In this document: positions 21,737 to 34,219 of the stretch, in pieces
Layout of the letters: every line of letters starts with the position of its first letter
Numbering within the stretch: the stretch's first letter is position 1
NCBI GenBank assembly: GCA_017859815.1
Contig: JAFMMM010000005.1
Location: forward strand, 1 to 44,996
Direction: 5' to 3'
Origin: Planctomycetota bacterium
GTDB taxonomy: Bacteria > Planctomycetota > Planctomycetia > Planctomycetales > Planctomycetaceae
DNA: 44,996 nucleotides
Made by a program: the position numbers and the translations under genes
Notes under the pieces: model-generated
Database searches by the model: none
Seen by the model: the letters and a program-made list of their open reading frames with translations, nothing else
Told to the model about the DNA's origin: nothing

Positions 21737-22864
21737 TTATTCAGCAACAGTTTCTCGACCTGATGTGCCGGCAACATCTGTGAGCGTTGTTGAGCGACGA
21801 TTCAGGTGCCCGGGATTCTGGGGAAATTGACCTGCACCGTCCATTGAGTACCAGCGGTTGAGAACGTCTTCCCAGTCGTCAGAAGTACGCACCCGCAGAA
21901 AGTCATCCCGTACAGCGTTGTCAGCGGGATGCCACGCCGCGTAGAACAGGCAGAACTTTCTGACCTGACGCAAATACTGAGCCGCCGGCAGTACCTGACG
22001 GGCAAGTTCGAAATGGCGATTGATCACCTGCCGCTGTTCAGAGATTCGCGGTGGAGCTGCATTGGATTTCCCTTGCAGCAGTTGACGACAGTGCCCATAG
22101 ATCCACGGATTCCCGATAGCTCCCCGAGCCGCAGTGACACCATTAACACCGGTTTCGCGAATCATGCGTACGCAGTCCTGTGCGGTAAACAGGTCTCCGC
22201 TGCCCAGCAGAGTCAGCTCCGGAAATCGATCCCGAACCTCCGAGAGAAACTCCCACCGAGCCGGCCCGACGTACTTCTGCTCAACAGTCCTGCAGTGCAC
22301 AGTTGCGGCAGCAAGCCCCAGCGACTGAGCGGCCTGCAGGATTCTGAAGAACCGTGCACGACTCACGTCAGTGTCATCAACGCCCCTGCGCATTTTGACC
22401 GTCACCGGAATTTCGGCCGGAACAGCCTCACGAACCGCACCAAGAATCCTGATCGCTTTCTCCGGGTCTCCCAGATGATATCCACCACGACAACGCCCCG
22501 CAGCGCGTTTCGCCGGGCAGCCGAAATTAATATCGATCACGTCGAATCCGGCATCCGACAGACACCTTGCAGCTTCAGCAAATTGAATCGGGTCCGTGCC
22601 TGTCAGCTGAGCTCCCACCGGATGATCGTCCTCACGGACCAGCAGATGATGCTGCGTACGCTGGCGATTGCGAAGACTGTTGACAAACGTATCAATGGCA
22701 ACTTCAGCGATTGAATAGGGAGCGCCCATTTCCCGTGCAATGGCGCGCATTGGCCAGTCACTGTAGCCACTGAGCGCGGCCTGAATCACCGGCAGCTCCA
22801 GTTTGAGATCGCCGATCCGCAGTGGTGCCATCTCGCCCGGGGAATTGTCACCGTGCCGGGACAT
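21737..22864 (-). CDS. tRNA-dihydrouridine synthase (Dus family)
   Basis: I choose ATG 22864 (MSRHGDNSPGEMAP), which has GGA about 9 bases upstream and overlaps the preceding stop by 17 bases; ATG 22924 and ATG 22831 are alternatives. The ~375-residue product is an FMN-dependent TIM barrel that reduces uridine in tRNA. Visible motifs are VIQAALSGYSDWPMRAIARE, the catalytic-Cys motif DINFGCPAKR, a GGYHLGDPEKA loop (somewhat unusual; most members have a Leu-rich ALL segment here), VTVKMRRG, TVHCRTVEQKYVG and GSGDLFTAQDC with the FMN phosphate site GVTAARGAIGNPWIY. The C-terminal helical domain that binds tRNA follows. It probably shares a transcript with the C45 hydrolase upstream. Confidence 0.92.
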   Translation of the reverse strand: MSRHGDNSPGEMAPLRIGDLKLELPVIQAALSGYSDWPMRAIAREMGAPYSIAEVAIDTFVNSLRNRQRTQHHLLVREDDHPVGAQLTGTDPIQFAEAARCLSDAGFDVIDINFGCPAKRAAGRCRGGYHLGDPEKAIRILGAVREAVPAEIPVTVKMRRGVDDTDVSRARFFRILQAAQSLGLAAATVHCRTVEQKYVGPARWEFLSEVRDRFPELTLLGSGDLFTAQDCVRMIRETGVNGVTAARGAIGNPWIYGHCRQLLQGKSNAAPPRISEQRQVINRHFELARQVLPAAQYLRQVRKFCLFYAAWHPADNAVRDDFLRVRTSDDWEDVLNRWYSMDGAGQFPQNPGHLNRRSTTLTDVAGTSGRETVAE

Positions 22865-24746
22865 CACTAATTCCGGTGCAGTTACTTTTGAACAAATCTC
22901 CGGCGGAACTGGCACTTGTTTCACGAATTTTCCGTGACCCGCTCAGTTCGATCCGCACGTATGGCATTTCTGCCGCCGGACGATGATGACTCGCGTTGGC
23001 AACCCAGAGCACGCCTGATTCTGGAACAAACAGCACGTTATGAAGATTGGACTTCATTGCTACAGGGCGACTCATCAGCCACATGGCCGTCTCTTCATCG
23101 ATGCTTCCATGTTTTTCCTGAATGCGACGTCGCAGTTCTTCCAGGCGGCTGCCTGCAGACAGCACCACGCTGTCTGCAATTCCTGGTCCAAGCAACTCGT
23201 GACCGTCACCAGGAGCCACAAACTCGATCGCTTCCGGAGTCGCGGCGACACCAACCGCACGCCGTGTCTTCCCATCGGCAAACACGTAGTAGTACTCGCA
23301 CGTTCGGGGAGACGTCTTCCACAACTCCATGACCTCATCCAGCGTCCCGCATTCCTCCAGCGCTCGCCGCATCAGGGTTGCCATCGGCACTCCGTCCCAG
23401 TTCCCCTCGCCACGTCCCCCCATTTCGCCCAGCGAGATTCTTTTAATATTCATGCCGCTGACACTGCCGGTGAACCCGGCGTATCCAACATTTGCAAAAC
23501 CGTGCAGGCCCTCCGGATGGATCAGGAATGTTGTGGCAGCGTCCTGTAATCCGATTGTTGTCATGTAATCCAGGACGCGTCCGTGGTACAGGCGGCCGTC
23601 AGCCGTTGCCGAATTCATCACGGCAAACCCGGAGCAATGAAATAACTCCGGAAAGACATTCAGCACCTCGATTCGATGCGGATCGCAGCCCAGCGCCAGT
23701 GCCATCGCGCGAGTCTCTTCACGGTGCCGCTCGGGGATAAACGGAGCCAGCCGCTTCCAGGCAGCCTCCAGATCATGCCGAAACCATCGGCCAGTACGAA
23801 TCAGGCTGGCCACCCCGAATGTGCTCATCACCGATTCAATACAGCGGGTTGACTCCTGCGGAAGCAGTTGTCCGTGAGCCGTCCCGATCTGCTCGGGTGT
23901 CCCCCACAAAGTCACAACTCGCTGACCTTCCCGCCACTCCAGCCGTCCGTGCGAGGTTTGCCGTGGAGTCATGCGAGGCTTGAGTAGAGCAGGCCCCGGC
24001 AGCAGAATCTCTGTGGCTCGACGAACCCCGGTGACAAATGTCGATTCGAGTTCCTCGCGGGGAATGACGGCAGCATGATCAGCGTCGGGAAGTTGTCGCA
24101 ACTGGCCCGCGGCGGCGCCGATCTCTACCGTCAGCAGGACCGAAGTTCGCCCCGACTGAATCTGATATTTCCCATTTCCTCGGACTTCGAGCCGAATGTC
24201 TCCAGACTGCCACACACTCCTGTCAGGCTCGCCCTGAACAGGCTGCAGCCGTTGCAGCCACCCTGTCAGGAATGCACCGGAACCACTTGTGCCCAGAACG
24301 CTGAGCACGGCGGTGATCGGCTGTAGTTGGGAATCGGGCGAAATCAGCCGCGACAGAACTCCCTGTGGGGCAAGGCTGACCTCTGCTGAAACAGAACCTT
24401 CACCGACGAATGAGGTTTCATGAAGCGGAAGCTGAATCATGGTCACACCGGACCGTCTCAGGATTCTGATCGCGTATTCCGGATGCTGCAGCGAAAGATC
24501 GAACTGCTCGGCGCCCTCGCGGAGCAGATCTGCCTCGATCCGCTGGATTTTGCCGTCGACAGGCACGTCAATCACGGCGTTCAGATGAAATTGTTCGGCC
24601 TGTGGACCGAAGAGATGAAGGACCGGCTTGAGGTCCTCCAGCAGGTCGCCTGCCTGAGCCGGCACAGTCAGCATTGTCAGCAGCGTCAGTGCCCGCAGCA
24701 TCAGTGCCCGCAGCATCCTACCAGCCTGCCGTTGTGTTTCTTGCAT
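22848..24746 (-). CDS. Secreted C45-family Ntn hydrolase/acyltransferase with large N-terminal extension
   Basis: I place the start at ATG 24746 (MQETQRQAGRMLRAL), giving a signal peptide ending near VPAQAG; ATG 24716 is possible but its GGTAGG is too close. The C-terminal half matches peptidase C45 (isopenicillin-N acyltransferase-like) enzymes: VTLWGTPEQIGTAHGQLLP, EEVLN-like helices, FHCSGFAV with the predicted nucleophile Cys371, LYHGRVLDYM, GFANVGYAGFTGSVSGMN, GGRGEGNWDGVPM and NLHNVLFVPESGVLWVAN. Family members cleave or transfer acyl groups and are activated by cleavage before the Cys. The ~250 residues before the hydrolase domain have no recognised family and read as beta-rich. The signal peptide contains an exact duplication (MLRAL-MLRAL). 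The stop lies inside the start region of the Dus gene. Confidence 0.85.
   Translation of the reverse strand: MQETQRQAGRMLRALMLRALTLLTMLTVPAQAGDLLEDLKPVLHLFGPQAEQFHLNAVIDVPVDGKIQRIEADLLREGAEQFDLSLQHPEYAIRILRRSGVTMIQLPLHETSFVGEGSVSAEVSLAPQGVLSRLISPDSQLQPITAVLSVLGTSGSGAFLTGWLQRLQPVQGEPDRSVWQSGDIRLEVRGNGKYQIQSGRTSVLLTVEIGAAAGQLRQLPDADHAAVIPREELESTFVTGVRRATEILLPGPALLKPRMTPRQTSHGRLEWREGQRVVTLWGTPEQIGTAHGQLLPQESTRCIESVMSTFGVASLIRTGRWFRHDLEAAWKRLAPFIPERHREETRAMALALGCDPHRIEVLNVFPELFHCSGFAVMNSATADGRLYHGRVLDYMTTIGLQDAATTFLIHPEGLHGFANVGYAGFTGSVSGMNIKRISLGEMGGRGEGNWDGVPMATLMRRALEECGTLDEVMELWKTSPRTCEYYYVFADGKTRRAVGVAATPEAIEFVAPGDGHELLGPGIADSVVLSAGSRLEELRRRIQEKHGSIDEETAMWLMSRPVAMKSNLHNVLFVPESGVLWVANASHHRPAAEMPYVRIELSGSRKIRETSASSAGDLFKSNCTGISDVPAR
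24687..24716 (-). repeat. Perfect 15-base tandem duplication in signal peptide
   Basis: Two exact 15-base copies (24687-24701 and 24702-24716) encode MLRAL twice in the signal peptide of the C45 hydrolase. The copies keep the frame, so the change only lengthens the hydrophobic core and adds one Arg. It looks like recent slippage. Confidence 0.85.
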
Positions 24747-25073
24747 CAATACAGCCCGAAAAAGACCCCCCGAGGGAACTACCACAATCCGCTGAGCGTC
24801 CGGAAGTATACAGGCAGTGGTCAGAATGGAACAGCAGTACTCCCCGGTCGCTGAAAGGGACATCGACGGCATAATCCGCAAAGTTGACCTGATCCGGCTG
24901 ACGTGCTCGTTTTGACTCTCCCCATTGCTTTCCAGCCGATATAATACGTTGGGATCGTGGCCATCCCATGCCGCTGCATAACACGTCTCCGAGATTCATT
25001 TCAGAGCCGTCGGTGGCCGATTGCCCCAAGAGATTTCCCTTCCAGAATTCGCTTCAGTGACAAAGGTGCCATC

Positions 25074-28000
25074 GTGTCCGCAGCCCACGAAACAAACGAC
25101 TCATCGCGTTTCGTCCAGCCGGAAGAATTCATCCAGCACCAGTTGCAGCGTGCCCGCAACCGAATTCAAGCCACCGATGTGCTTGGGGCACTGGTTGTCG
25201 CGGGACTGATTCTGGTTGGCTACGTGCTGCTTTTTACTCTGCTTGATCACTGGGTTGTCGATGGTGGCTTTAATGCCGGAACACGTGCCGTCATGCTGCT
25301 GACCGTGTTGGTCGGCTGCCTTGCATTGATTTATCGCTTCGTGTTCAGAAGACTCAATTCCTCCGTCAATCCCCTCTTTGCAGCCCGCATGCTGGATGAC
25401 AGCATCAAATCTTCACGGGGAAGTCTGCTCGCTCTTGTCGACCTCCGCAATTCAAAGCAACCGGCCACTGTAGCCGTTCGCCGAACTCTGGAAACCCGAG
25501 CTGCATCAGGCCTGAATCAACTGGAACTTGATGAAGTTATCGATCGAACCTGGCTGATCCGCGGTAGTCTCGCGCTGTTCCTTGTCACTCTGCTGACTTG
25601 TCTTTATGCCGTGTTCAGCCCGAAGAGTATTAGTCTGCTGAGACCGCTGTCCCTCGCCGGTGTCACTGTCGCCACCAGAACCCAGCTGGATTCGATTGAA
25701 CCCGGCAGCACAACTGTGACAGCTGGATCATGGCTGGACTTTCGCGTCGACGTTTCCGGCGATATCCCGGATCAGGTACAGCTCTTCTACTCCACCGAAG
25801 ATCGCCGCTTCGTGCATGAACCTCTGACCCTGCAGCCCACCGATGACGAGCATCGCTTCGAGGCGAGTCTCGCCGGTGAGCAAAACCGAGGACTGCGGCA
25901 GAATCTCACCTATTTCGTGCGTGCAGGAGACGCCAGCAGCCAGGTATTTACGATCACCGTGGTGCAGCCACCGGCAGCCACACTCAACAGTGTGACCTAT
26001 CAGTATCCCGGCTACATGCAACTTCCGGAACACAGCTCGACCGACGCGGCTATTCGCACCTGGGAAGACACTGTTATCTCGTTGCAGGCCACTTCAAATG
26101 TCCCGTTGAGAGATGCTGTTCTGCAATTGTCCGATGACCCGGAATTCCCCGGCGGTCTGGAAGAGATTTCGCTGAGTATTTCCGGATTGGAGATCACGGG
26201 AAAATGGCAAATTGCCGCTCGGTCTGATGGCTCTTTCCCGGCATTCTGCAGAATCCAGGTGACCGACAAAGAGGGCTCACAGAATCCCTCGCCGACAGTC
26301 TACCCAATCGAAGTACGCAGAGATCAGCCGCCACTGGTGCGACTGCTTGATCCCACTGCAGACTTGCAGGTGCCCCGAAATGCCGTTGTCCCATTTCTGG
26401 TTCAGGCGGAAGATCCTGACTTTCTGCTGCGCAATGTCAGTCTGCATTACGCCATTAATGGCCAGCCACCGCAGCCCGCCGAATATCTGATGGAAGCAAG
26501 CCGCGAGGGCGCGATCCGGGAATGGATCGGGGCCTACGAACTGCAGTTGTCTCAACAGCCGGTGCAGGCCGGCGATGTGGTCACATGTTACGCCGAAGCG
26601 CGAGACAACCGTCCTCCGCTCGGTAGTGCTGCTCGCAGCACGACAATCAGGCTGCAGATTACAGCAGAAGTCTCGGAAGAACAGGTTGCTGAACAGCTGC
26701 GACAGGATCGTGAAATTCAGCAACAAATGAAGCAGTCCCAGGAAACGCCCACGGAACCTCGTACAGAATCCGAACAGGATGCGCCGCCAGAACCGAATTC
26801 CCAGCAGTCTGACGCTGACGGTAGCAACGCCCCTGACGCTGCAGGCAAATCTGAAACTGATCGCCGGAACTCCGACGGTGCCGAACAGCAATCCGACAGT
26901 GCTGCCCAGCAGCAATCCCCGGCAACCGACAGGAACAGCGATGATGCGGCATCCGGGTCAGCCTCGGACATGCCCAGTGACACGCACGAAACCGACGCGA
27001 TGCCAACAGAAAATAGTTCGGATGAGGAATCGAGTCGCGGTCCCGCAGACGACAATGAAGCACTTCAGCAGTTGATCAACCAGCTGAATCGCGACGCAGC
27101 AATGACGGACTCCAACCAGGCCATTCAGGACCAGAACGATTCTCAGGACCAGCCCAATGACGGTTCGACGGAGGACCGCCAACCCACAGATCAGGATCAG
27201 CAAATACCACAGGACGGCATTGCAGACGCCAGGCCTGATGACAATGGTCTGCAGAATCCGAACTCCCCCTCCGATGACGGCATGCCGAATGATCCGGGGA
27301 AGGAAAACGGAAATGACAGTCCAGACTCGAATCCCATGGACGATGCACCAACACAGCCTGACCCGGATTCCGCTGCTCCCGCTACAACTGATCCTGAAGA
27401 CAAGCAGTCCGGCGAGTCAAATTCACAGAGCACGGATGACCCAACACGGGAACAGCCAGCGCAGTCCGAATCCGGAACATCCCCTGCAGACGAAGATCCG
27501 CAAAACTCTGCTGACTCTCCGAATCAGAGCGCATCAGGAGAACAACAGAAAACCAACGACGAAGGTACTCCGGCGACAGGTGATGATGCTGACTCCCGCC
27601 CTGACGAAAACACGACTCAGCCGGCTGGGCCACAGTCGAATGACGAGCGTCAGGATATGAGTGGAGACAAGCAGGCAAATCCGGGGAACGCTGATGAACA
27701 GGGCAATCCCGATTCGAGCGCAAGCTCGCAGGATCAAAACAGCTCATCCAGCCAAAGCGGTTCAGAATCAGAGAGCAGCAACTCCGGAGATTCATCCAGC
27801 TCATCCGGCAATCAGAATTCGCAGGGTCAGTCCGGTTCGCCGACAAAATCACCTGCAGACGCGAACGGCAGCAGCGGTGGTGATGCCGCCGGATCCCAAT
27901 CGAAAGGTGGAGAGTCCTCCTCCGGCAGCAAGGGGACTCAAGGTAACGAGGGATCAAAAGCCTCGAATTCACCTTCGCAGGATTCTTCCTCCGAATCCGG

Positions 28001-29108
28001 TTCCGGTGCTTCACGGCAAAATCAGGACACAGCTGCTGACGACGGTCAGCAGGATGGAGCCGAAGGCATGTCTCCGCAGGACGGCTCCAGGGAACAGCAG
28101 GACCCATCCGGAAAGCAGCAATCCGGCAAGCCCAAATCGGGCGATGGCCAGTCAGAGCCAAGTTCAAACGAGCAGTCCGGTGACCCATCTCCAAAGAGCA
28201 CTCAGGATTCCAACGCGGGACCAGCTCAGAACTCTGAAGCTCAGTCGACAGCAGATTCCGCTGAAGCGGCAAAGACTTCACAGGAGTCCGAGAACGGACA
28301 ACCTGGCAGCCAGCAGCAGAACTCACAGAAGGACAGTCAGAGGAATTCGCAGCAGTCTCAGGGCTCCCAAAAACAGTCCGGAGGCGACTCTCAGCAGGGA
28401 AGTGATCAGGGCGGCGGGAAAAAGCCTCAGGGCGGTGAAGGAGGAGGAGGCCAGCAACCGGGCGGCGGTGGACAGGGACCGACCGGCAAGCCGGGAGCCT
28501 CGGGAGGTGTCCATTCGGGCAATGGAAAGCCCGGTAGCGAGACCGCCGAATTCACTGAACCCGAGCCGAACGGCAAGTCGCCTGTCCCTGAACCGGGAAG
28601 CGGCGTCGGGGGAGCGGCAACGGATCCCGATGCTCCTGAAGGTTCAGAGGGGAGTGCAGATCAGACGTCACCGCAGACGCAGGACCAGACAAAACCGGAC
28701 CCTCAGGAGGTCGACCGTGCAGCGAAAGCAGCGAACCTCGCCCTCCGTAGAATTCGCCAGGATCTCGATCGAGGTCGAGTGGACAAACAACTGCTTGAAG
28801 AACTCGGCTGGACCGAACAGCAATTGCAGGACTTTACCGATCGGATGGAAAAGCGTTTGCAGGAGCGAAGCCTGAACAGCCAGCAGCAGCAGGAGCAGAC
28901 GCTCTCCCAGAAATCCTTCGATGAAATGTTGCGTAGTCTGGATCTTCAATCTTCAGGATCGTCGAGGATCGGCGATTCCTCTCGGGATCGTGATCGCGTG
29001 GATACGACGCTACGAAGGTCAGTTCCGCCCGCAAAATATCGACAGGCTTTTGAAGCCTACCAGCGTTCGCTGTCCGGAGCGTCGCGAAAGTCTCCGCCCG
29101 GAAAGTAA
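25074..29108 (+). CDS. Large DUF4175-like membrane protein with ~665-residue disordered linker
   Basis: I start at GTG 25074 because AGGTG lies 6 bases upstream; an in-frame GTG at 24957 would add 39 residues without a signal. The 1344-residue protein has three predicted membrane helices (about 35-57, 70-90 and 161-181) with a helical segment between the second and third, then a long beta-rich exported region with Ig-like turns (PVQAGDVVTCYAEARDN and similar). Residues about 545-1209 are extreme low complexity: Asp/Glu/Gln/Asn/Pro/Ser first, then Gly/Ser/Gln with Lys. The last ~135 residues are helical (LALRRIRQDLDRG, EELGWTEQQLQDF) and end in VPPAKYRQAFEAYQRSLSG. The helix layout resembles DUF4175-type planctomycete proteins and the minus-strand protein at 31814-34219. 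Function is unknown; an envelope scaffold is my inference. Confidence 0.85.
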   Translation: MSAAHETNDSSRFVQPEEFIQHQLQRARNRIQATDVLGALVVAGLILVGYVLLFTLLDHWVVDGGFNAGTRAVMLLTVLVGCLALIYRFVFRRLNSSVNPLFAARMLDDSIKSSRGSLLALVDLRNSKQPATVAVRRTLETRAASGLNQLELDEVIDRTWLIRGSLALFLVTLLTCLYAVFSPKSISLLRPLSLAGVTVATRTQLDSIEPGSTTVTAGSWLDFRVDVSGDIPDQVQLFYSTEDRRFVHEPLTLQPTDDEHRFEASLAGEQNRGLRQNLTYFVRAGDASSQVFTITVVQPPAATLNSVTYQYPGYMQLPEHSSTDAAIRTWEDTVISLQATSNVPLRDAVLQLSDDPEFPGGLEEISLSISGLEITGKWQIAARSDGSFPAFCRIQVTDKEGSQNPSPTVYPIEVRRDQPPLVRLLDPTADLQVPRNAVVPFLVQAEDPDFLLRNVSLHYAINGQPPQPAEYLMEASREGAIREWIGAYELQLSQQPVQAGDVVTCYAEARDNRPPLGSAARSTTIRLQITAEVSEEQVAEQLRQDREIQQQMKQSQETPTEPRTESEQDAPPEPNSQQSDADGSNAPDAAGKSETDRRNSDGAEQQSDSAAQQQSPATDRNSDDAASGSASDMPSDTHETDAMPTENSSDEESSRGPADDNEALQQLINQLNRDAAMTDSNQAIQDQNDSQDQPNDGSTEDRQPTDQDQQIPQDGIADARPDDNGLQNPNSPSDDGMPNDPGKENGNDSPDSNPMDDAPTQPDPDSAAPATTDPEDKQSGESNSQSTDDPTREQPAQSESGTSPADEDPQNSADSPNQSASGEQQKTNDEGTPATGDDADSRPDENTTQPAGPQSNDERQDMSGDKQANPGNADEQGNPDSSASSQDQNSSSSQSGSESESSNSGDSSSSSGNQNSQGQSGSPTKSPADANGSSGGDAAGSQSKGGESSSGSKGTQGNEGSKASNSPSQDSSSESGSGASRQNQDTAADDGQQDGAEGMSPQDGSREQQDPSGKQQSGKPKSGDGQSEPSSNEQSGDPSPKSTQDSNAGPAQNSEAQSTADSAEAAKTSQESENGQPGSQQQNSQKDSQRNSQQSQGSQKQSGGDSQQGSDQGGGKKPQGGEGGGGQQPGGGGQGPTGKPGASGGVHSGNGKPGSETAEFTEPEPNGKSPVPEPGSGVGGAATDPDAPEGSEGSADQTSPQTQDQTKPDPQEVDRAAKAANLALRRIRQDLDRGRVDKQLLEELGWTEQQLQDFTDRMEKRLQERSLNSQQQQEQTLSQKSFDEMLRSLDLQSSGSSRIGDSSRDRDRVDTTLRRSVPPAKYRQAFEAYQRSLSGASRKSPPGK
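26690..28700 (+). other. Low-complexity coding region (disordered linker)
   Basis: About 2 kb inside the large membrane protein gene encodes Asp, Glu, Gln, Asn, Ser, Pro and Gly almost exclusively. All six frames are open over long stretches because of the composition, which creates misleading antisense and shifted frames (for example 27382-28326 minus and 27661-28875 plus). The first half is strongly acidic; the second adds Gly, Ser and Lys. Confidence 0.9.
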
Positions 29109-29127
29109 TTCTCACCGATACAACATT

Positions 29128-29165
29128 AAAAAAAAAACGCCGCACATGAGTGCGGCGTTTTCATT
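29128..29165. terminator. Perfect bidirectional intrinsic terminator
   Basis: AAAACGCCGCAC (29134-29145) pairs with GTGCGGCGTTTT (29150-29161) around an ATGA loop: a 12-base perfect stem. A 10-base A-run lies to the left and TTTT to the right. It should stop the large plus-strand gene ending at 29108 and, read on the minus strand with ten U residues, stop the small acidic-protein gene very efficiently. Confidence 0.92.
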
Positions 29166-29342
29166 ACCCTCGCTTAGACAGCCTTTGATGTCGTGGAGAC
29201 TTCGCTGTCGTGGCGAATTGGCTGATCAGGTGATTCAGGCGTTACAACAACGACTCGAAACGAAGCAATGATGCCCGAAAGGGCTGTCTGTTCGTCAGAG
29301 CGTGTCTGCAAACCTGAACTTGAGAGCGACGCTTTACCAGTC

Positions 29343-29654
29343 TTAAGCGGTCTCAAACACTTCTGCGTTCTCGTTTCGCAGATCGTCTTCAACAAACAGA
29401 TTACCGACACTGCCAGGGCCGTGATCGTAGCAATCGTCGTTGTGCCACAGAGGCAGGCCGGCAGCATAGCGTGCTGCAAGCATCATCACTTTTTCTTCAG
29501 AGCCCGGCTTTGCCGCAGTTGGTGCAGACGGGTCTACTCCAAGTGACTTCAGCTCTTCTTCGAACCCTGCATCAAGGTCGTTCAGAAACTCAAAACCCTC
29601 AATCTCAGACAGTGTTTCGAGTCCGGAATCAACCTCTGAAAAAGGTGCCAGCAT
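29343..29654 (-). CDS. Small acidic protein with ARYAAGLPLWH and CYDHG motif
   Basis: The 103-residue protein starts at ATG 29654 with GGAG about 9 bases upstream. The first ~50 residues are acidic and helical (ETLSEIEGFEFLNDLDAGFEEELKSL in two short pieces). The centre holds KVMMLAARYAAGLPLWHND followed directly by DCYDHGPGSVGNL, a compact arrangement of Trp, His, Cys and Tyr that looks like a conserved functional site; from memory of planctomycete proteomes I believe the motif recurs, but I cannot check it. No signal peptide or membrane helix is visible, so it should be cytoplasmic. It sits alone between two large convergent membrane-protein arms, with the strong terminator 180 bases past its stop. 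No known function. Confidence 0.75.
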   Translation of the reverse strand: MLAPFSEVDSGLETLSEIEGFEFLNDLDAGFEEELKSLGVDPSAPTAAKPGSEEKVMMLAARYAAGLPLWHNDDCYDHGPGSVGNLFVEDDLRNENAEVFETA

Positions 29655-30108
29655 TCAGCTACTCCAGTGAGGAAAGGCAGAAATAAAGATCTTCTGTTCC
29701 ATCCCTGGAAGTGATCTGAAGGTCAAACACGCGGAAGCAGCAAGCTGCGAACAAACAGCTGGAAGCCATCAAGGCCAAGCCTGCTTCAACGCGAGGTTTG
29801 AATCCTCTTCAGAAAATGTCACCGCGGCTCTTCCGGCTGGCGACCCTGCGATTCCTTTCGCAAGCGGATTCTTCAGGGAATCGACCGCGTTGTCAACACG
29901 TATTTGAAGATGCCCTGATGATTCGCAGCAACTGCAGTCAAGTCATCTCCCGGCCATCTTCCAGAGTCGCTAAAGACCCCAATCCTCACTGTCTCACAAA
30001 AACCACGCGCCCTATTTTTTCACCAGGGCGCTGCAGATTTGAGACACCCCGTGAGACCTTGATGCCTTCTCACAACCTGCACGGGACCGGCTCGGAGCGA
30101 TATTCGCC
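29655..30108. other. 454-base intergenic region
   Basis: No credible gene is seen. The region carries the promoter of the small acidic-protein gene and, at its right end, the downstream hairpin of the coiled-coil gene (29998-30031). A plus-strand frame of 132 codons (29798-30196) runs into the coiled-coil gene and lacks protein-like composition. Base composition is more AT-rich than the flanking genes. Confidence 0.5.
29998..30031 (-). terminator. Probable intrinsic terminator of coiled-coil gene
   Basis: Read on the minus strand, GCGCCCT and AGGGCGC form a 7-base stem with an 11-base loop, followed by GTGGTTTTTG. It lies about 78 bases past the stop of the coiled-coil gene. An outer repeat, GTCTCAC (29991-29997) and GTGAGAC (30051-30057), encloses the hairpin. 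Confidence 0.6.
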
Positions 30109-31761
30109 TCAGCGCTGCGATTGCGAACGGCGTTGTAATTCCCGTGCCGACTCCAGCAACCTCTCCTGGCGGTGGCTGAGCTCGCTAATCTGTTGACGAA
30201 GTGCTTCCAGACGTTCCGCTGGTACCGTTTGCAGCAGCCGGTCAACTCGCTGGGTGCGTTGATTCACCTGTAGCTGCAGGTTACGGAGCACTTTGATTTC
30301 CGCAATCAGTTCCACCAGTGGTGATTGCTGCGAGTTGGTTCCCTGTTGCTGTTGTGACTGCTGTTGCTGTTGCTGCATGTCCTGCATTTCCTTCTGCATG
30401 ACTTCCACCAGTTGCTTCAGCGCGTCGATCACATCCTGCTGAACCGACTGAGTCAACTCGGACACGTCCGAATCTCGCAGCCACTCCCCTGCACTGTTCA
30501 TATCTGCTTCAATATCCTCTACCGCCAGCAGAATTGCACTGGAAGTGCCGTCTTCCTGCAGTAACGCGACGGTACCCGCACATTCCCGAGCCAGTTCAGT
30601 CTGCTCCTGGGCCACTTCGCGACATCGTGCAAAGGCGAGGTCCAACCACTGATCTTTGGGAACTTCTGCAAGACTGATTGTGCTTTCGTGGATTTGGGTC
30701 TGCACAATCAATAATCGCTGAAATCGGGCTTCCAGAGAGGCCAACATCATCTCCTTCTCTTCCTCACGAAGCTGCCTCAATTGCTCTTCAAGTTTCTCTT
30801 CTGCTTCCCGCAGTTCCTGCAGAGCCTGATCTTCATTCTTTAGCGCCTGATCACGCTGCTGTTCCTGCATCGCGTCGAGTGCCTGCTGCATTTGCTGCTG
30901 AGCCTTCTGCAGTTGTTCCTTCCCCGGGGTTTGAGGCGTATTGGGGGAATTCTGCTGCTGTCCGGAACCGCCCTGCTGTCCGGAGTTTTCAGAGGACTGG
31001 CCTTCAGAAGATTCGGAGTCCCCGGACTGCTCAGATGGCTCGCCATCCTCCCCGGCCTCTGAGTTACCGTTGTTTTCTGAATTTGGTTGACCCTGCTCAT
31101 CCGCACCGGGTTGTGTGCCATCCTGACTGTCTTCGGATTCGCCCTGCTTTCCTTCGCCCTGCTTTCCTTCGCCCTGATCCTCACCGTCGCCATCATGCGA
31201 TTTGATATCTTCCAACAGCGACTCCGCTTCATCGAGGGCCTGTTGCTGCCGGGGCGCAGCATCTGAAGGAGCGGGGGACAGCTGCGTGGAGATTCTCGCC
31301 GCTTTTTGACGTTCCATGACCTGACGAACGTTCTTCAGAACTCCGTTCAGTCGTTCGCGCTCGCGTTCCACACTGCTGCGGCGATCTTCACTTTGCATCA
31401 GGCTTAACAGAGACTGCAGGCTGGCAACAATTTCCTGCTGTTTCTCCGATGCCGCCCCAAGATCACCATCCGACAAGAGCCCAACAGCGTCTTCAATTTT
31501 TTCCCGCAGCAAGTCTTCGCGGCCACGTCCCAGGGCCCGCCGCAGCAGATCAGCGCGCTCCGGATCCTGGCGTGCCATGATATCGGCCATCTGTGTCAGC
31601 ATTTTTTCGAATCGCGCGTAGCGACCGCTGATGGACATCTGTTCATTCTTCAGGTCGCCGGATCCTGTCGCGTCCTCGTCTGATACATCCTGCCCCATGG
31701 CCGAAGTCAGCATGAGTAGCAGGACACTGAATGGCATCAGCAGTCGGCAGTTCCGCAGCAT
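30109..31761 (-). CDS. Secreted coiled-coil/low-complexity protein
   Basis: I use ATG 31761 because GGAG lies 8 bases upstream and it opens a clean signal peptide (LLMPFSVLLLMLTSAMGQ, cleavage near Gly23); an ATG at 31803 lacks these. The ~550-residue product is mainly helical with heptad-like Leu and charged residues (LREAEEKLEEQLRQLREEE, VDRLLQTVPAERLEALR). Two low-complexity parts are visible: an acidic Gly/Glu/Ser/Asn stretch roughly 185-300, and a poly-Gln run near the C-terminal third. I know no family for it. It follows the DUF4175-like gene by 52 bases on the same strand, so the two are likely co-transcribed, and it probably acts outside the cytoplasmic membrane with it. The long coiled coils suggest a structural or scaffolding part. 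Confidence 0.82.
   Translation of the reverse strand: MLRNCRLLMPFSVLLLMLTSAMGQDVSDEDATGSGDLKNEQMSISGRYARFEKMLTQMADIMARQDPERADLLRRALGRGREDLLREKIEDAVGLLSDGDLGAASEKQQEIVASLQSLLSLMQSEDRRSSVERERERLNGVLKNVRQVMERQKAARISTQLSPAPSDAAPRQQQALDEAESLLEDIKSHDGDGEDQGEGKQGEGKQGESEDSQDGTQPGADEQGQPNSENNGNSEAGEDGEPSEQSGDSESSEGQSSENSGQQGGSGQQQNSPNTPQTPGKEQLQKAQQQMQQALDAMQEQQRDQALKNEDQALQELREAEEKLEEQLRQLREEEKEMMLASLEARFQRLLIVQTQIHESTISLAEVPKDQWLDLAFARCREVAQEQTELARECAGTVALLQEDGTSSAILLAVEDIEADMNSAGEWLRDSDVSELTQSVQQDVIDALKQLVEVMQKEMQDMQQQQQQSQQQQGTNSQQSPLVELIAEIKVLRNLQLQVNQRTQRVDRLLQTVPAERLEALRQQISELSHRQERLLESARELQRRSQSQR
31138..31177 (-). repeat. 15-base tandem repeat encoding GEGKQ units
   Basis: Two exact 15-base copies (31138-31152 and 31153-31167) and part of a third encode repeated GEGKQ in the acidic low-complexity part of the coiled-coil protein. 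The frame is kept, so copy number may vary between strains. Confidence 0.8.
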
Positions 31762-31813
31762 TCGAATTCTCCACAAGCTTATCGAGGCATCGATGGCACT
31801 CATTCAACGGGCA

Positions 31814-34219
31814 CTAATTCAACAGGTTGTCGAACAGCTGTTGTTTCTGCAGCTGCCGCGTCTCTTCAAGGATTTTTCGCTGATCTTCTGACAGCTGCCG
31901 GAGATCTCTCAGCGCTTCATGGAACTCGGCAAGGTCCCGCACGTTATCCAGAATGTTTCGCAGTGAGCCAATCAGGTTTCGAACCTGCTGCTGTGAGCTT
32001 GCCAGGGGCGGTGTCAGGCTCTGTCGAGTCTCCGCTGCAACCAGCAGTGCTCCGAGTGCCCGATCTGCCGCCGGCAGTTCATTCGCCGAAGCTGCACGCA
32101 GCGGATCAATAATCCCACTCTGCATGGCTTCGGCATTGTGTAGCGGGATCGCGTTGTTAATCAACTGTCTCATGATCTCTTCGAATGCCAGAACCAGTGC
32201 ATTAATCTCGTTTGCCTGCCGACGCAGGTTATTCGAGGATCGGGAACTGCAGGACACCAGGCTTAAGGTATCTTCCTGAGTTGCCTGATCGGCTGCCGCA
32301 TCTGCGCGAGCAGCCATGGGGTTGTGAAACTCCAGGTCCCGCAGAATCTCCTCCAGTTGAGCGATGACCTCTTCAAACCGCGATCGCAGTGCAATCTCGC
32401 GTGTGTACAGCAGCGACAGTAATTCATCCTCACTAACGATGCGAAATGGCATCGGCGAACTGCGGGTCATCCCGGGCCCGGGGGATGGATTTGCATCAGC
32501 GGCAACCACCGTCAGCGTGACGGCCTGGCCGACAGTCAAAGCGAGCGGTTCCAGATCAAAGACTTCATACGGCTCGCTGGCCGATCGTTGCAAAGTGACG
32601 TCAGGACTGCCTTTTTGAATTCCTCGGCGGAACGGACGCGGTCGCCAGTTTGTTTCATCGTCGACGCGAAATTCCAGTCCCCCGCTCTCCACTCCGTAGT
32701 CATCACGAATTCGTCCAGCGATCGGTATTTTTGCCCGGCGTGTGACCGAGTTCCCAATGTCTGTCATTTGTGCGACAACCACCGGAGCCTGATCCGGTAC
32801 CCCTGTGATCTGTAGAGTTTCCGGACTGACGGTCATCACATTATCCAGATCGTGCAGAAAAAACCGCAGGCTGGTGTTGGAGGGTATCATCAGGACTTCC
32901 GGTGTGTCTGCGGCAAACAGCGACGTGGAGTCCTGCTTCAGGACCGAGACCATCAGCTGCAGTGAAAACCGGATACTTTTTCCGTCGTCGCCAAGCAACG
33001 GCAAATGTTCCAGAATCGTCACGTTGCCTTCGCTGGACGTCACATGTGTGGACTGCTGATCTCCGCGAATCTCAAACCGATCTGTCACGATTCGCGCTGA
33101 CTGCAGGGGCTTTGCGGAAATCGCTGTGATCTGCATCACCGTTCCTTCGGGAAGCGAAATCTCACTGCCCGTCACACTGAGCTGCGTCTCCCGTTGCAGA
33201 TTCCAGCCCGTGTACTCGGGGTAGTCACAGTTGACTTCAATGGAATCGAGACCCGGGGATTGCACGACGTCGACACGCCAGGGTGTCGTATTGCGGAAAT
33301 CCCCGGCCAGCACTTCGATTTCAACAGGCTCCCGCAGTTGCGTGATGACAAAGCGAAAACTGCGTGAATCGGAACCTGCGACCCACGCCCGACTGCGCGA
33401 TCCATCCGCACGCAGGACATCCACACGAATTCGATCGGGAACAATCCATTCCGTGTCTGCGGTGGGACCACCATCCGGTATCACGAATTCCAACTCGAGG
33501 TCCGCCGCTGTTGGATGGGAGTAGCAAAGCTGTCCCGCCCCCGCAAAGGGAATGCGCCGACTACCCGGCTCAGCCACGGCAAATAATTCGACCGCTGTGG
33601 TCCGCTGTCGATAGTTCTCCTGGCAGCTGACAAACGCGTGCCACCACTGACCGGGAATGGATGGACTGATGAGAATGGGTACCAGAACAGACAGCAGCAA
33701 CCCGCCCGACAGTCGGCTTTGCCGATGCAGAGGTGCCACGTCAAACACCTCGGACGGCGAGACTTCCGCGGCCATTCGCCCCGCTTCGTCCACGGATCGC
33801 TGCAACATTTCGCTGCCCCGGCGCGAGTCAGACTTCGCCTTCCCTGCTGCCTCGACCGCCAGAACCAGACGATCTTCAAAACGCGGGAAACGACGTTCCA
33901 CCAGCAAAGCAAGATCGATCCCCGAAAAGCGACAAACCAAGGGCACCACGATGCGGCGAAAAACAACCACGCAGGACCACGAACAGCACAACGCCAACAG
34001 CAGTACTCGAAGACCGCGCGGTAATTCCAGAGTCTGCAGCCAGAACCATCCGGAATCCAACAGCAGAGTCGTCCAGAAATAAATACAGAATCCGCTGACC
34101 AGAATTAACGCTCCGGACAGTGCAGCGCGCTGCCGAATCCCGCGGCGTATCCGGCCGAACAGCAGCGTAATTTCGCCCGGTAAACGAGGAGAACGAGTTT
34201 GAATTTCACTGGACGGCAT
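31814..34219 (-). CDS. DUF4175-like membrane protein
   Basis: The 801-residue protein starts at ATG 34219 with AGGTG about 9 bases upstream. Three predicted membrane helices (about 32-54, 69-95 and 170-186) frame a cytoplasmic helical segment with LALLVERRFPRFEDRLVLAVE and a run resembling the matching segment of the large plus-strand protein. The exported part is beta-rich with Ig-like features (DSIEVNCDYPEYTGWNL, AGRIRDDYGVESGGLEFRVDD, VTLTVVAADANPSPG). The C-terminal ~200 residues are helical and coiled-coil-like (EALRDLRQLSEDQRKILEETR). The architecture fits DUF4175-type proteins, whose function is unknown. It precedes the coiled-coil gene by 52 bases and converges on its probable paralogue at 25074-29108. 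Confidence 0.83.
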   Translation of the reverse strand: MPSSEIQTRSPRLPGEITLLFGRIRRGIRQRAALSGALILVSGFCIYFWTTLLLDSGWFWLQTLELPRGLRVLLLALCCSWSCVVVFRRIVVPLVCRFSGIDLALLVERRFPRFEDRLVLAVEAAGKAKSDSRRGSEMLQRSVDEAGRMAAEVSPSEVFDVAPLHRQSRLSGGLLLSVLVPILISPSIPGQWWHAFVSCQENYRQRTTAVELFAVAEPGSRRIPFAGAGQLCYSHPTAADLELEFVIPDGGPTADTEWIVPDRIRVDVLRADGSRSRAWVAGSDSRSFRFVITQLREPVEIEVLAGDFRNTTPWRVDVVQSPGLDSIEVNCDYPEYTGWNLQRETQLSVTGSEISLPEGTVMQITAISAKPLQSARIVTDRFEIRGDQQSTHVTSSEGNVTILEHLPLLGDDGKSIRFSLQLMVSVLKQDSTSLFAADTPEVLMIPSNTSLRFFLHDLDNVMTVSPETLQITGVPDQAPVVVAQMTDIGNSVTRRAKIPIAGRIRDDYGVESGGLEFRVDDETNWRPRPFRRGIQKGSPDVTLQRSASEPYEVFDLEPLALTVGQAVTLTVVAADANPSPGPGMTRSSPMPFRIVSEDELLSLLYTREIALRSRFEEVIAQLEEILRDLEFHNPMAARADAAADQATQEDTLSLVSCSSRSSNNLRRQANEINALVLAFEEIMRQLINNAIPLHNAEAMQSGIIDPLRAASANELPAADRALGALLVAAETRQSLTPPLASSQQQVRNLIGSLRNILDNVRDLAEFHEALRDLRQLSEDQRKILEETRQLQKQQLFDNLLN

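Follow-up and report, generated by a model that had tools for sequence, protein, structure and literature searches.

The locus analyzed here raises the question of whether two large membrane proteins encoded convergently in the genome of a freshwater planctomycete, P1 and P2, form a system of their own together with P3, encoded next to P2, and a small gene between the two arms. A preliminary description had matched this arrangement to no described system and had suggested an envelope scaffold or mechanical complex. The window, i.e., the whole stretch of 44,996 nucleotides that was analyzed, is located on contig C557 of a 5.6-Mb genome in 560 contigs. The open reading frames of P1, P2, P3, and the 103-residue protein were all confirmed as first described (Table 1); that of P1 is open from position 24957, and the GTG at 25074 matches the starts of its orthologues. 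The window also encodes Planctomycete cytochrome C, DUF1501, and DUF1549/1553 proteins, and the minus-strand gene at 22848-24881 encodes a C45-family autoproteolytic acyltransferase domain preceded by roughly 330 additional N-terminal residues.

Table 1. Features of the convergent locus
Feature	Coordinates	Strand	Description
P1, DUF4175-like membrane protein	25074-29108	+	1344 aa; 3 TM, 3 Ig-like domains, linker, conserved C-terminal helix
Hairpin terminator	29128-29161	-	8-bp G+C-rich stem plus A/T pairs; 10-T tail on minus strand
103-aa conserved protein (LWHNDDCYDH)	29343-29654	-	Outside the MoxR-Bat set
P3, exported coiled-coil protein	30109-31803	-	564 aa; ancestral operon gene 6
P2, DUF4175-like membrane protein	31814-34219	-	801 aa; 3 TM, 3 Ig-like domains, helical C-terminus

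Homology and predicted fold of P1 and P2

The claim that P1 and P2 share one layout and represent one kind of protein was borne out by several lines of evidence. (i) Both have three predicted transmembrane segments at corresponding positions, namely, residues 30-64, 67-94, and 159-189 in P1 and residues 32-57, 68-103, and 170-192 in P2. (ii) A single-sequence BLASTP comparison of P1 with P2 gave an E value of 0.02, which is near noise, and the kinship is visible only with profiles: alignment with hhalign of profiles made from 21 P1 and 20 P2 orthologues resulted in a probability of 99.96% and an E value of 3.5e-39 over 511 columns with 20% identity. (iii) In AlphaFold2 models of both proteins, the third helix is followed by three Ig-like domains and these by the C-terminal helical part; the domain limits, read off from the order of the strands, are at about 204-297, 302-411, and 421-530 in P1 and about 211-319, 324-474, and 480-594 in P2. 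The P2 model has a pLDDT of 87.6 and a pTM of 0.56, whereas the P1 domain model has a pLDDT of 65.6, the lower confidence being due to just five sequences having gone in. The mutual comparison that had been proposed as a check thus found exported folds that are alike and not unrelated, and, as judged from the profiles, the common layout is true homology. P1 had been ascribed a long beta-rich exported domain, but its residues from about 561 to 1200 are not beta-rich and form a low-complexity linker of about 640 residues, rich in S, G, Q, D, P, and N. In some relatives, this linker is made up of short tandem repeats (KSGEP, QQGQQSG), and it is within the linker that several contigs break off.

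Scans against Pfam and NCBIfam yielded no family above the cut-off for P1, P2, P3, or the 103-residue protein. The DUF4175 label is therefore justified by kinship and not by the proteins themselves: P2 scores 19.8 bits against DUF4175 (PF13779), below the cut-off of 27.3, and P1 has no match, but orthologues or relatives of both pass the cut-off elsewhere, and in relatives from other families the match spans the region from the transmembrane segments to the Ig-like domains. Comparison of the P2 profile with sequences of solved structures revealed no convincing relative. Foldseek searches of the PDB with both models retrieved tandem Ig, Fn3, and macroglobulin domains (complement C3/C5, NCAM, and alpha-2-macroglobulin) with TM-scores of <0.4; such generic matches do not point to any specific function of P1 or P2.

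The coiled-coil partner of P2 on the minus arm was found as proposed: P3 follows P2 after 10 bases and has a single N-terminal hydrophobic stretch (residues 19-40). The small Trp/His/Cys-motif protein is likewise encoded in the gap, with a conserved core around LWHNDDCYDHGP and sequence identities of 78 to 91% across the genus and 56 to 67% in other genera of the family. In part of the genus, its gene follows P3 in the same orientation, and in other genera it is located elsewhere; as it is unlinked to P1 or P2 outside the genus, it was dropped as a candidate fourth component. The hairpin at 29138-29157 had been called a strong bidirectional terminator, which agrees with its tail on the minus strand, but the plus-strand tail is just TTTT, so that the label "bidirectional" is weak.

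An operon around P2 and P3 in related planctomycetes

In relatives, P2 and P3 are part of an operon of about 11 genes in the order MoxR-DUF58-BatA-VWA-P2-P3-g6-g7-g8-g9-g10. Upstream of P2 are genes for MoxR (AAA_3), DUF58, BatA, and a second VWA protein, and downstream of P3 are those for a secreted protein (g6), an NPCBM-domain protein (g7), and trypsin-like/PDZ proteins (g8 to g10). This order is complete or largely so in six genomes (G018, G028, G037, G022, G023, and G021), and the operon is present in Planctomycetaceae, Schlesneria, Pirellulaceae, Rhodopirellula, and Gemmataceae and partially in one Phycisphaerae contig. Outside the genus of the window, a VWA gene oriented like P2 is located at most 1.5 kb upstream of it at 27 of the 32 loci with at least 2 kb of upstream sequence; MoxR, DUF58, and BatA all occur within 10 kb upstream at 20 of 25 loci, and the HtrA-like g8 occurs downstream at 16 of 20, figures that refer to loci that are not independent samples, because several close relatives are among them. 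With the same reservation, P3 follows P2 at all 11 loci of the genus that extend far enough and was detected at 20 of the 27 other loci. The linkage of P2-P3 to MoxR, DUF58, BatA, and VWA genes is thus present in relatives and absent from the window, and in the genus none of the eight loci with at least 6.5 kb of upstream sequence carries any of these genes. An alternative split form is seen in the G020 type (L188 and L192), in which the half from MoxR to VWA and the half from P2 to g10 are divergent.

The g8 to g10 genes were compared in four stretches (L031, 15884-20000; L025, 1095-4164; L106, 2100-4932; L166, 9795-12487). The motifs NYHV and GNSGG are retained in g8, which looks, from its sequence, like an active HtrA-type protease. 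The catalytic serine motif has been lost from g9 and g10, which have NSGAAGG and SPVNYGG instead, with the PDZ domains kept.

P1 has its own associations. In three sister genera (L092, L093, and L094), it directly follows BatA_a-VWA_a, a pair other than that of P2; this linkage is confined to these genera, and P1 is located apart in G018, G021, G023, and the genus of the window, where counterparts of BatA_a and VWA_a were found on contigs C163 and C133 of the window's genome. At least 18 other P1 paralogues begin right after a VWA gene, one of them on contig C459 of the same genome. Taken together, the P1 orthologue after a BatA-VWA pair and these paralogues indicate that a DUF4175-like gene after a VWA gene is a class-wide rule. 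Relatives thus carry MoxR/Bat genes directly upstream of P2 and, in three genera, of P1. We consider it likely that P1 and P2-P3 belong to two paralogous MoxR/Bat-type sets.

Scattered operon pieces in the window's genus

Searches found no BatA or DUF58 gene on contig C557, in agreement with the earlier observation that MoxR/BatA-type genes are not nearby. This absence had been taken as a sign of an undescribed system; it reflects only a loss of linkage, since the partners are located elsewhere in the genome. They were identified through searches and fetched stretches, with orthology taken as the best match to the operon of a sister genus (G022). The genes for MoxR (78% identical) and DUF58 (68%) are adjacent on contig C184 (L154, 6903-8808), those for BatA (51%) and VWA (56%) are adjacent on contig C215 (L161, 4746-9775), and g8/g9 (52%) are on contig C508 (L166). 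The same searches did not pin down g6, g7, and g10 in the window's own genome; in another member of the genus (G004), a g6-g7-g8-g9 block (L168) is on a contig other than that of P2-P3. The operon of this genus has broken into MoxR-DUF58, BatA-VWA, P2-P3, and g6-g9 pieces. In a maximum-likelihood tree of 38 P2 sequences, obtained by a quick method without bootstrap and with some distant rows on long branches, the rows of the genus form one 14-row clade (SH-aLRT, 99), and all of its loci of sufficient length are split. This clade is nested among operon-bearing rows, and the tree contains three further split rows and one divergent pair, which indicates that the break-up is derived and occurred more than once.

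The scattered genes may have lost their coregulation. An alternative reading is that, in this genus, P2-P3 left the MoxR/Bat machine for an envelope role of its own, with the scattered partners acting separately. Four blocks have indeed lost their linkage throughout the genus and in further lineages, and the P2-P3 pair itself stayed intact; however, the catalytic and metal-binding partners were kept. In the window's genome, MoxR has intact Walker A and B motifs (GVPGLAKT and VVLADE), and DUF58, BatA, and VWA have intact DxSxS MIDAS motifs, which suggests continued use, and we regard an independent role as unlikely.

Less probable still is that the convergent P1, P2, P3, and small genes work as one unit and specify an undescribed envelope scaffold built from two DUF4175-like proteins. 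P1 and P2 are homologous with a common exported fold, and their arrangement is retained in the window and four related metagenome-assembled genomes (MAGs) (DJN.30, ErkenSummer_bin-6500, Erken-D3_bin-0369, and LaPlata_bin-4282; L171 to L174). However, the search of relatives for all four genes together found this neighborhood only in this one subclade of the genus. The contigs of two more close relatives (L113 and L116) stop too early to judge; in the remaining members with enough sequence (e.g., G004, G014, G001, and G006) and in all other genera examined, P1 is apart from P2. Moreover, P2 has other, conserved partners, and convergent genes are not cotranscribed. An envelope scaffold as such is plausible, but the convergent pair as its frame is not, with P1 unlinked outside one subclade. 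The idea that the locus is an artefact of assembly or binning of MAGs, to which the split of the window's genome over 560 contigs might point, is refuted by independent assemblies, since the gene order is identical in four other MAGs, in one of them on a 440-kb contig (L174), and P2-P3 without MoxR/Bat neighbors also occurs far from the ends, midway along a 196-kb contig (L180). The convergent pair thus arose as operon break-up brought its genes together, and it most likely shares the biology of the MoxR/Bat systems. A lone convergent gene pair should accordingly not be taken for a system.

Proposed role and relation to known systems

From gene adjacency, we infer that P1 and P2 are most likely envelope subunits of MoxR/VWA remodelling complexes. 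Cytoplasmic MoxR (AAA+) and DUF58 would act on membrane-anchored BatA/VWA proteins with their MIDAS-bearing domains in the periplasm. P2, or P1, would be the next subunit, anchored in the inner membrane by its three N-terminal helices, with its Ig-like domains and helices extending into the periplasm together with the coiled-coil P3; it could thereby relay MoxR/VWA activity across the inner membrane. The complex would remodel or check an envelope client, and g8, as a putatively active HtrA-like protease, and the PDZ pseudoproteases g9 and g10 would deal with failed clients. The P1 set would work in parallel on a client of its own. P1, which goes with another BatA-VWA pair, came to face P2 in one subclade. 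More tentatively, and with more doubt than confidence, one may envisage a so far undescribed machine for envelope quality control, nearly class-wide in planctomycetes. In it, P2 and P3 would couple a motor of MoxR, DUF58, BatA, and VWA to three HtrA-like proteases, one active and two inactive, and it would still run in trans after operon scattering in one genus.

MoxR ATPases are reported to pair with VWA proteins in target remodelling (PMC9976466, PMC10585395), and a Bat-type protein of Borrelia was shown to reside in the inner membrane, its VWA domain facing the periplasm (PMC5700661). Counting against the preferred assignment to MoxR/Bat-type sets, Bat mutants of Leptospira biflexa grew no differently in liquid culture (PMC3557215). 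A literature search with little coverage of subscription journals retrieved nothing joining MoxR, DUF58, and Planctomycetes, a single paper that mentions DUF4175, and no description of the complete gene set of the planctomycete MoxR/Bat variant. Among the many MoxR/BatA gene sets of planctomycete genomes, the fixed 11-gene set, with its proteases and Ig-domain membrane proteins, represents a concrete, testable complex, and the genus with the scattered operon is a natural experiment on whether function needs operon linkage.

Three kinds of known systems resemble this set. (i) The MoxR-vWA-centric ternary systems (PMC7159879) share the MoxR-VWA pair with a third component, sometimes include trypsin-like peptidases, and occur in planctomycetes. 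Their third component, however, is VMAP, iSTAND, FtsH, or a beta-propeller, accompanied by effector modules, and no Ig-domain membrane protein like P1 or P2 is among these. (ii) RavA-ViaA and NorQ-NorD (PMC10585395, PMC9976466) likewise have a MoxR AAA+ protein and a VWA protein acting on a client complex, but the accessible parts of these articles name no Ig-type membrane subunit or protease. (iii) The Bat operons (Bacteroides aerotolerance) of Bacteroides, Leptospira, and Borrelia combine MoxR, DUF58, and BatA-type VWA proteins with exported helpers (PMC3557215, PMC5700661); compared with what the available text of these reports describes, the planctomycete set adds the DUF4175-like Ig-domain protein P2, the long coiled-coil P3, an NPCBM protein, and HtrA-like proteases. 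The locus is a rearranged planctomycete variant of the MoxR/Bat systems and not a new paired system.
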